Positions 35,486 to 37,983 of a stretch of DNA of 64,000 nucleotides are shown one piece after another. The notes below the pieces were generated by a model. The model was not told where the DNA came from. It worked only from the letters and a program-made list of their open reading frames with translations, and did no database searches. This DNA comes from Akkermansiaceae bacterium. Lineage in GTDB: Bacteria > Verrucomicrobiota > Verrucomicrobiia > Verrucomicrobiales > Akkermansiaceae. The stretch's first letter is position 1; each line of letters starts with the position of its first letter. The stretch lies in contig SUVN01000006.1 of assembly GCA_015061985.1 (NCBI GenBank), positions 1-64,000 of the forward strand, in the 5' to 3' direction. Both the position numbers and the translations under genes were made by a program.

Positions 35486-35514
35486 TTGCCATTCCCGCGC
35501 GGGTGCGCTATAAT
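35486..35514 (+). promoter_or_regulatory. Predicted promoter of carA
   Basis: TTGCCA, 17-bp spacer, TATAAT, a near-perfect sigma70 promoter. The spacer contains the palindrome CCCGCGCGGG. Transcription would start near 35521, giving a 16-nt leader. Confidence 0.8.
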
Positions 35515-35536: not shown

Positions 35537-36673
35537 ATGAAAGCAATTCTTGCACTCGAAAACGGAATTATCTTCGAAGGCACCTCATTCGGTGCCACCG
35601 GTACTGTCACCGGTGAACTCGCATTCAACACCGCCGTTGTAGGCTATCAGGAGCTCCTCACCGACCCCTCCTGGAAAGGACTTTTCCTTACCTATACCTA
35701 CACCCACATCGGCAGCTACGGCATCAATGAGGAGGACAACGAAAGCGACCGCCCACAGGCCGCCGCCGTCATTGCCACCGAGCTTTCCCGCCTGCACTCC
35801 AACTGGCGCTCCACGGAATCCCTGAGCGATTGGCTTGCACGCTACGGCGTTCCTGGCATTGAGGGGGTCGACACCCGCCGGCTCACCCTCATTATCCGCG
35901 AACAGGGTTCTCTGCGCGCCTGTCTCAGCACGGAGCTGAGTGCAGAGGAAGCCATTGCCGCCGCCAAGGCCGCCCCCACGGTGGTCGGCAGCGATTTGGC
36001 AAGCACCGTCTCCGCACCCGCCGCTTATCACTGGGACGGCGAATCCCGCGGCTGGAAGCTGCCGAACAAATCCCGAGGCGACCTTTCCTACTACACCGAG
36101 CTCCCCGCAGCCACCCGCAAGGCCGTGGTTCTGGATCTGGGCGTACAGCGCAGCGTGCTGGCCACCCTGCGCCGCGACGGCTTTGATGTGACCGTTGTAC
36201 CCGCTACCACATCTGCCGCTGATATTATGGCTCTGGGTGCCGACGGTCTCTTCCTTTCCCACGGCCCCGGCGACCCCGCCGCCCTCAGCGGCATTGCTGC
36301 AGAAGTAGCTCAACTCATCGGCAAACTGCCCATTTACGCCATGGGGCTGGGGCATCAGGTGCTGTCCATGGCACTGGGCTGCAAAACCGTGAAGCTTCCC
36401 TTCGGCCACCACGGCGGCAACTATGCCGTGCGCGACCTGCGCAACGATGCCGTCTCCATCACCACGCAGAACAACCTCTTTGCCGTGGATTCCGACTCCG
36501 TGACCGGTGATGCCGTCATCACCCACACCAACCTGAGCGACGGCACCGTGGCCGGCGTGGCAAGCAAGAGCGCACCCGCCGCAGGCGTGCAGTTCCTGCC
36601 TGTTCCCCCTCCCTCCGATGCTTCCCGCACCTTTGCGGAGTTCATCGACATGGTTGACACTTTCAAGAAATAA
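35537..36673 (+). CDS. carA: Carbamoyl-phosphate synthase small subunit, glutaminase-dead form
   Basis: CarA normally hydrolyses glutamine and channels ammonia to CarB for pyrimidine and arginine synthesis. The 378-aa protein has the typical N-domain (MKAILALENGIIFEGTSFGATGTVTGELAFNTAVVGYQELLTDPS, GVPGIEGVDTRRLT) and a class I amidotransferase fold (FLSHGPGDP, KLPFGHHGGNYAVRD). All three catalytic residues are lost: the nucleophile site reads AMGLGHQ (Gly270) instead of GICLGHQ, and FxxQGHPEASPGP is replaced by VQFLPVPPPSDA. The fold is otherwise well kept. It probably serves as a structural partner of an ammonia-using CarB. The track's upstream start at 35486 lies in the promoter. carB is not in the window; purA follows in the same transcript. 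Confidence 0.93.
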   Translation: MKAILALENGIIFEGTSFGATGTVTGELAFNTAVVGYQELLTDPSWKGLFLTYTYTHIGSYGINEEDNESDRPQAAAVIATELSRLHSNWRSTESLSDWLARYGVPGIEGVDTRRLTLIIREQGSLRACLSTELSAEEAIAAAKAAPTVVGSDLASTVSAPAAYHWDGESRGWKLPNKSRGDLSYYTELPAATRKAVVLDLGVQRSVLATLRRDGFDVTVVPATTSAADIMALGADGLFLSHGPGDPAALSGIAAEVAQLIGKLPIYAMGLGHQVLSMALGCKTVKLPFGHHGGNYAVRDLRNDAVSITTQNNLFAVDSDSVTGDAVITHTNLSDGTVAGVASKSAPAAGVQFLPVPPPSDASRTFAEFIDMVDTFKK

Positions 36674-36708: not shown

Positions 36709-37983
36709 ATGAACACACTCGTTATCGGCTCCCAGTGGGGCGATGAAGGCAAGGGCAAGGTCATCGACTTCCTGACCGAGACTGCTGACTTCGTTGTCCG
36801 CAGCCAGGGCGGCAGCAATGCCGGCCACACCGTCATTGCCAACGGAAAGAAATACGTCCTCCACCTGGTGCCCTCCGGCATCCTGTGGCCGGGAAAAGTG
36901 AACGTCATCGGCAACGGTGTCGTCATCAACCCCACCTCACTGGTGGAAGAAATGACCTATCTGCGTGACCTCGGCGTTTCCATCACCCCGGAGAACCTCA
37001 TCATCTCCGACCGCGCCCACGTGGTGCTGCCCATCCACAAAGAAATCGATGCCGCCCAGGAGGAAGCCCTCGGCGAGCACAAAATCGGCACCACCAAACA
37101 GGGTATCGGGCCCACCTATGCCGACAAGGCTCGCCGCATCGGCATCCGCATGATTGACCTGGCAGACCCCGAGCGTCTCCGCAAGGTGCTGGAAGCCCGC
37201 ATCGAGACCGCCAACGATGAGCTGGCCCGCCTCGGCTGGCCGAAAGCTGACCCTCAGGTGACCATGGATGCCGTGATGGCCGCAGCCGACGTGCTGCGCC
37301 CGCACATCACCAACACCATCCCCGCCCTCAACAAAGCCATCAAGGCCGGGAAGACCGTTCTCTTCGAGGGTGCACAGGGCGCCATGCTCGACATCGACTT
37401 CGGCACCTATCCCTTTGTCACCAGCTCCAACACCAGCGCCGGCGGCTGCTGCACCGGCTCCGGTGTAGCTCCCACCCGCATCGACAAGATTATCGGTGTC
37501 TGCAAGGCCTACACCACCCGCGTGGGTGAGGGCCCCATGGTCACGGAGGATGCCGAGATTGCTGATTACCTGCACGGGCTGGGTCGCGAGTTCGGTGCCA
37601 CCACCGGGCGTCCCCGCCGCTGCGGCTGGGCAGACGGCGTGGTGCTGCGCTACTCTGCCATGTTCAACGGCTTCGACGAGATGGCCATGACCAATCTGGA
37701 TGGCCTCGACGAGTGCGACACCATTAAGATTTGCACCGGCTACCGCTGCGGCGATGAAGTGCTGGAGTACCCCCCTGCCCTCATGGACGACTGGGCCAGG
37801 TGCGAGCCCGTGTATGAGTCCGTCCCCGGCTGGAAGCAGGACATTTCCAAGTGTACCACATGGGAAGAGCTGCCCGAGGCTTGCAAGGCGTATGTCAAGC
37901 GCTTCGGCGAGGTCATCGGCTGCCCCGTGGGCACCGTGGGTGTAGGCCCTGACCGCGAGCAGACCATCGCTGTTCCCTACTGA
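36709..37983 (+). CDS. purA: Adenylosuccinate synthetase
   Basis: Condenses IMP with aspartate, using GTP, in the first step of AMP synthesis. The 424-aa enzyme has the P-loop-like IGSQWGDEGKGKVIDFLTE with the catalytic aspartate, the loop GGSNAGHTV containing the catalytic histidine, IGTTKQGIGPTYADKARRIGIR, the IMP-site segments and VGVGPDREQTI at the end. All key residues are present. It lies 35 bp after carA with no promoter or terminator between, so the two are probably co-transcribed. A strong terminator follows. Confidence 0.98.
   Translation: MNTLVIGSQWGDEGKGKVIDFLTETADFVVRSQGGSNAGHTVIANGKKYVLHLVPSGILWPGKVNVIGNGVVINPTSLVEEMTYLRDLGVSITPENLIISDRAHVVLPIHKEIDAAQEEALGEHKIGTTKQGIGPTYADKARRIGIRMIDLADPERLRKVLEARIETANDELARLGWPKADPQVTMDAVMAAADVLRPHITNTIPALNKAIKAGKTVLFEGAQGAMLDIDFGTYPFVTSSNTSAGGCCTGSGVAPTRIDKIIGVCKAYTTRVGEGPMVTEDAEIADYLHGLGREFGATTGRPRRCGWADGVVLRYSAMFNGFDEMAMTNLDGLDECDTIKICTGYRCGDEVLEYPPALMDDWARCEPVYESVPGWKQDISKCTTWEELPEACKAYVKRFGEVIGCPVGTVGVGPDREQTIAVPY

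Follow-up and report, generated by a model that had tools for sequence, protein, structure and literature searches.

Carbamoyl-phosphate synthase (CPS) is the textbook example of an enzyme that passes ammonia from glutamine through a sealed channel, and according to a structural paper animal CPS1 is the only CPS type that does not use glutamine (PMC4655335). The described systems closest to the locus reported here are the bacterial glutamine-dependent CPS (CarAB, CPS II; TIGR01368, TIGR01369) and the animal CPS I (human CPS1, activated by N-acetylglutamate). The locus shares with CPS II its two subunits, domain order and fold, with matches above the family cut-offs, but differs from it in that the small subunit (CarA) encoded in the window, the 64,000-nucleotide stretch of DNA analysed here, is devoid of the Cys, His and Glu of the glutaminase site, and in that the stretch beta-254 to beta-272 of the large subunit (CarB) is altered in many lineages whose CarA has lost the Cys (Cys-less lineages). 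With animal CPS I it shares a disabled glutaminase site and, by inference here, ammonia as nitrogen source. In human CPS1 the glutaminase Cys is replaced by Ser294 (PMC4655335) and position beta-258 is an Asn. However, animal CPS I is one fused chain, whereas carA and carB are here separate genes on different contigs, all three triad residues are lost in the window CarA, and the origin is independent. The likeness to CPS I proposed in a sequence-only reading of the window hence holds as functional logic, not as family membership.

Related defects have been made in the laboratory. The E. coli CarA mutants C269S (PDB 1c30) and G359F (PDB 1m6v) keep the fold, but these are engineered proteins, whereas the window belongs to a natural lineage in which both subunits have changed. 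When the tunnel of E. coli CPS is blocked or perforated, the enzyme ceases to use glutamine but remains active on external ammonia, and for human CPS1 a different route for ammonia has been proposed (PMC4655335). Ammonia-dependent synthesis of carbamoyl phosphate is also on record in a microbe, by the carbamate-kinase-like CPS of Pyrococcus furiosus (cited in PMC6245113). The latter is an unrelated kinase-type enzyme, while the CarB of the window genome is a full protein with two ATP-grasp domains. The open-licence literature searched contained no account of a bacterial CarA that naturally lacks the Cys.

The carA gene of the window (35537..36673, + strand) encodes a protein of 378 amino acids, identified on the basis of its open reading frame, profile matches, an alignment with E. 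coli CarA and a predicted model. It is preceded by a sigma-70-like promoter, TTGCCA-17-TATAAT (35486..35514, + strand; 11/12 consensus matches), and followed by purA, coding for adenylosuccinate synthetase (36709..37983, + strand); both had been claimed beforehand, and purA was confirmed while the near-consensus promoter holds as a pattern match only. The protein matches TIGR01368 over its full length with 364.8 bits (curated cut-off 307) and includes the CarA-specific N-terminal domain PF00988 (residues 5-129; 35549..35923, + strand; 154.6 bits) and, by profile match, the class-I glutamine amidotransferase domain PF00117 (residues 197-355; 36125..36601, + strand), the latter catalytically dead by sequence. 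An AlphaFold model made with an alignment of relatives reached a mean pLDDT of 88.7 and a pTM of 0.90, and the best-matching solved structures are E. coli CarA chains (TM-score ~0.90), followed by human CPS1 (0.83).

The alignment with E. coli CarA locates the loss. Indeed, (i) E. coli FGICLGHQ reads YAMGLGHQ, Gly270 (codon 36344..36346, + strand) replacing the nucleophile Cys269, (ii) E. coli FQGHPEASP reads VQFLPVPPP, Leu354 (36596..36598, + strand) replacing the catalytic His353 and Val356 (36602..36604, + strand) the catalytic Glu355, the PGPHD stretch after Val356 being likewise rewritten, and (iii) Asn240, adjoining the conserved GPGDP loop, is replaced by His242 (36260..36262, + strand), His312 by Asn and Gly313 by Leu. 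Asn240 is gone from most Cys-less CarA lineages. Ser47, Leu270, Gln273 and Asn311 are kept. The protein consequently fails the test for a Cys-His-Glu glutaminase triad (C269G, H353L, E355V): it is a full CarA that preserves its fold and its two domains and lacks the catalytic triad, as had been claimed on both counts. Since the nucleophile is missing, hydrolysis of glutamine by this protein is hardly to be expected, an inference drawn from sequence alone and without an assay, and the database annotation 'glutamine-hydrolyzing' probably does not apply to it. The possibility that the tunnel in CarA is blocked at Gly293, the way it is in human CPS1, was considered and rejected, Gly293 being retained in the window protein; Ala or Cys at position 293 is also seen in intact CarAs.

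The gene is under purifying selection, its dead domain included. Among the closest relatives (L001, L059, L064 and L065; dS 0.45-0.81), dN/dS is 0.10-0.11 for the whole of carA and 0.08-0.09 for the dead amidotransferase domain; the median for pairs of Akkermansia with an intact CarA is 0.16. Deep pairs inside the Akkermansia Cys-less clade give 0.35-0.55, in part through saturation, which indicates that on some branches constraint has loosened and CarA has changed fast.

The source assembly (2.37 Mb, 53 contigs, 90% complete) encodes one CarA (on contig C41) and one CarB on a separate contig (C14), the latter of normal full length, with two ATP-grasp domains and a TIGR01369 match of 1511 bits. 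A second intact carA would have refuted the sequence-only reading; it was searched for and not found in this 90% complete genome. Both users of carbamoyl phosphate are encoded, namely ornithine carbamoyltransferase (argF, L202) and aspartate carbamoyltransferase (pyrB, L203), both NCBIfam-named. The class-I glutamine amidotransferases PyrG and HisH retain their Cys motif; the general use of glutamine has therefore not been lost, and the loss is specific to CPS. PF00117 has just three matches in the source genome (PyrG, HisH and the dead CarA), and a GuaA or TrpG amidotransferase was not seen there, which could reflect an assembly gap, a search miss or auxotrophy.

Comparison of CarA across relatives showed that the loss of the Cys is fixed in a clade of Akkermansia, recurs elsewhere and coincides with changes in CarB. 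A Cys-less CarA is encoded in 28/59 Akkermansia genomes, most of which have also lost the His and Glu, a pattern well beyond chance. In a CarA tree computed with the active-site columns removed, the 27 Cys-less rows of sufficient length form one clade within the vertical Akkermansia CarA (98% bootstrap, 92% SH-aLRT). Position 269 is mostly Gly in these proteins and Ser in two of them (L043, L044), as in human CPS1. The neighbour of carA is purA at 26/27 Cys-less loci versus 21/30 intact Akkermansia loci.

Nine of the 28 Cys-less Akkermansia genomes, but none of the 31 with an intact carA, have a second locus for CPS, purF-carA-nadE-carB, whose CarA has the complete triad and branches elsewhere in the tree (Fisher p = 0.0005, an indication only, as the rows are phylogenetically non-independent). 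This locus is considered foreign, and the inferred order of events is loss of the Cys first and partial regain of a glutamine-type CPS afterwards. No intact carA copy was detected in the other 19 Cys-less genomes, six of which are at least 95% complete; missing sequence alone would almost never produce such a result. Within the second locus (L034-L042), nadE, coding for a 261-aa NAD synthase, lies between carA and carB in 8/9 genomes.

Outside Akkermansia, a scan of named genomes revealed Cys-less CarAs in Opitutales (FGVGFGHQ and similar), where the gene adjoins carB, and in Clostridia MAGs, one of them a goat duodenum record. An intact carA accompanies the dead one in G430, G431, G432 and G435, and only the dead one was found in G429, G384, G433 and G434. 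In a survey of Clostridia, the class of G435, CarA was found in 277/393 genomes, and 25 of the 30 lowest-scoring CarAs are Cys-less, with Gly, Ser, Ala, Glu or Asp at position 269, each being the sole match in its genome. Together with G433, which belongs to this survey too, at least 26/277 CarA-bearing Clostridia genomes have a Cys-less CarA as their only one, a lower bound as the higher-scoring genomes remain mostly unread. On a Clostridia CarB tree made without columns 250-282, the Cys-less state requires 15 changes, 10 of which are forced by well-supported branches; regain of the Cys is possible in principle but unlikely, since three catalytic residues would be needed. The low-scoring Verrucomicrobiota CarAs outside Akkermansia are mostly intact, G384 being the sole Cys-less one among the survey genomes read. 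Most of these genomes are apparently MAGs, and duplicate sampling inside clades inflates the raw counts; the tree-based counts are more trustworthy.

The partner subunit has changed as well. A first set of CarB sequences, drawn from Akkermansia, Opitutales and four Clostridia, has 353 columns with at least 90% conservation among rows with intact partners. Only two of these, beta-254 (Gln) and beta-258 (Asp), have lost the conserved residue in half or more of the rows of each of the three Cys-less groups; in the Akkermansia Cys-less CarBs, the conserved columns altered in most rows are 254, 258 and 262 only. In a second set, restricted to Clostridia (27 Cys-less and 96 intact rows, 179 conserved columns), the top-ranked columns are 272, 254, 261, 97 and 265. 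The two sets share the rows L104, L114, L115 and L117 and are not fully independent. Among the Clostridia rows, beta-258 is neither D nor N in 11/27 Cys-less versus 1/96 intact, beta-261 is changed in 11/27 versus 5/96, and the Arg at beta-265 is lost in 5/27 versus 0/96. In an independent-pairs test, beta-258 and beta-261 vary with the loss of the Cys (5.7/10 pairs concordant, none opposed, median p 0.03), whereas beta-254 fails (1.3 concordant versus 0.2 opposed). These p-values are optimistic, the CarB sites having been chosen from the same data, and the median of about 0.03 is a best case. Every Akkermansia Cys-less CarB retains C232, A251 and A314, which form the gate; in Clostridia, A251 is a Cys in 3/27 Cys-less and 8/96 intact rows. 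Losses at conserved CarB positions from about beta-254 to beta-272 hence concentrate in Cys-less lineages, and the ammonia gate is almost always kept. The CarB of the window genome keeps Q254, R265 and E278 and is changed at marker positions 258, 262 and 264. In E. coli, beta-Arg265 contributes to the wall of the tunnel where it faces CarA residues 360-361, which fall within the rewritten stretch of the window protein. The placement of the CarB stretch relative to CarA is inferred from this E. coli background and not read from a structure.

The carA gene of the window most probably encodes the small subunit of an ammonia-dependent CPS (probability about 0.86). The use of ammonia is inferred, without enzyme activity data, because the triad is lost, the gene is under selection and is the sole carA, carB, pyrB and argF are present, and the gate is kept. 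The claim that this CPS is functional but unable to use glutamine, and hence uses ammonia, is supported by all computational tests tried. According to the proposed mechanism, CarA would still bind CarB and hold it in its active shape, as a scaffold or activator, without cleaving glutamine; free NH3 would enter from solution, probably by the CarA-CarB contact at the site of the former tunnel wall, and would react with carboxyphosphate in CarB; and the carbamoyl phosphate produced would go to arginine and pyrimidine synthesis. Within Akkermansia the conversion would have taken place a single time, in an ancestor, and in other groups it would have occurred many times independently; some Akkermansia descendants would later have acquired a second, glutamine-type CPS. 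The nine relatives with a second intact CPS suggest that ammonia alone may not always suffice.

Among the rival explanations, the one that survives best is that CarA is purely structural or regulatory and that CarB alone runs the ammonia reaction. The conservation of the dead domain despite the absence of catalysis would fit a structural or sensing role, and E. coli CarB alone is able to use ammonia. This explanation is nevertheless unlikely as a separate one, and it overlaps the preferred reading rather than contradicting it. Another possibility is that a glutamine-type CPS is encoded in the missing tenth of the genome and that the window carA is a duplicate with another role. Nine congeners do have a second intact carAB, and the source genome is only 90% complete. 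However, the dead gene sits at the carA-purA locus and is the carA that Akkermansia has inherited vertically, 19 Cys-less genomes have no intact copy even though six are at least 95% complete, and a single carB was found in the source genome, which leaves little room for a duplicate. There is equally little support for a separate glutaminase or other amidotransferase that would dock on the complex and supply it with ammonia from glutamine. Intact PyrG and HisH imply that glutamine is available, but no replacement amidotransferase adjoins carA in the window, the PF00117 matches in the genome are limited to PyrG, HisH and CarA, and the tunnel-side CarB changes favour an altered entry over a preserved sealed channel. 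Lastly, a pseudogene or an assembly artefact, for which only the fragmentation of the source assembly into 53 contigs speaks, can be regarded as practically ruled out by dN/dS and recurrence, the frame being open, a promoter pattern present, selection purifying and the Cys lost in 27 more congeneric genomes; the claim that carA is not a pseudogene therefore held.

Beyond the ammonia-dependent reading of the window locus, a bolder reading is that bacterial CPS switched from glutamine to ammonia at least a dozen times independently in Verrucomicrobiota and Clostridia, including many lineages from guts or digesters, with the glutaminase discarded each time and, in many cases, beta-254 to beta-272 altered in a way that gives external ammonia direct entry. 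The balance of evidence tips towards this reading by a narrow margin, and the link with guts and digesters rests on a handful of records with known habitat. If it is true, at least 26/277 sampled Clostridia with CarA and about half of the sampled Akkermansia species break the glutamine rule, the repeated losses are natural experiments on the entry of ammonia into CPS, a Cys-less CarA may mark bacteria living at high ammonia, and the automatic annotation 'glutamine-hydrolyzing', together with metabolic models, is wrong for Cys-less species.

As for habitat, the proposed ammonia-rich gut mucus niche is plausible but not shown. The named Akkermansia members were obtained from goat colon, goat cecum and roe deer rectum, all of them hindgut sites. 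No Amt-family transporter was detected in any of the 59 Akkermansia genomes (0/59), all 14 control genomes (14/14) being positive. The lack of Amt is consistent with an ammonia-rich habitat, but it is common to the intact relatives and therefore does not explain the loss of the Cys; the ammonium transporter was rejected as a separating trait, Amt being missing in Cys-less and intact lineages alike. Internal production of ammonia by urease was also rejected, as the urease alpha subunit was found in 0/59 Akkermansia genomes.

Several minor observations concern other CPS genes of these groups. No CarA was found at E <= 1e-40 in 57/388 Verrucomicrobiota genomes, several of which belong to one genus (g70). 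A second full CarB (1350-1371 bits) accompanies a single CarA in the intact-CarA Akkermansia genomes G004, G013, G015, G017, G036, G044, G046, G048, G052, G053 and G056, and this lone second CarB could possibly use ammonia. In the single-contig Akkermansia genome G265, carA (C1:812086-813172) extends over two frames with its Cys intact, which points to a frameshift or a sequencing error. Finally, the intact CarAs of G240 and G248 each give two partial matches to the family in a single frame, and their two halves may be separated by an insert.
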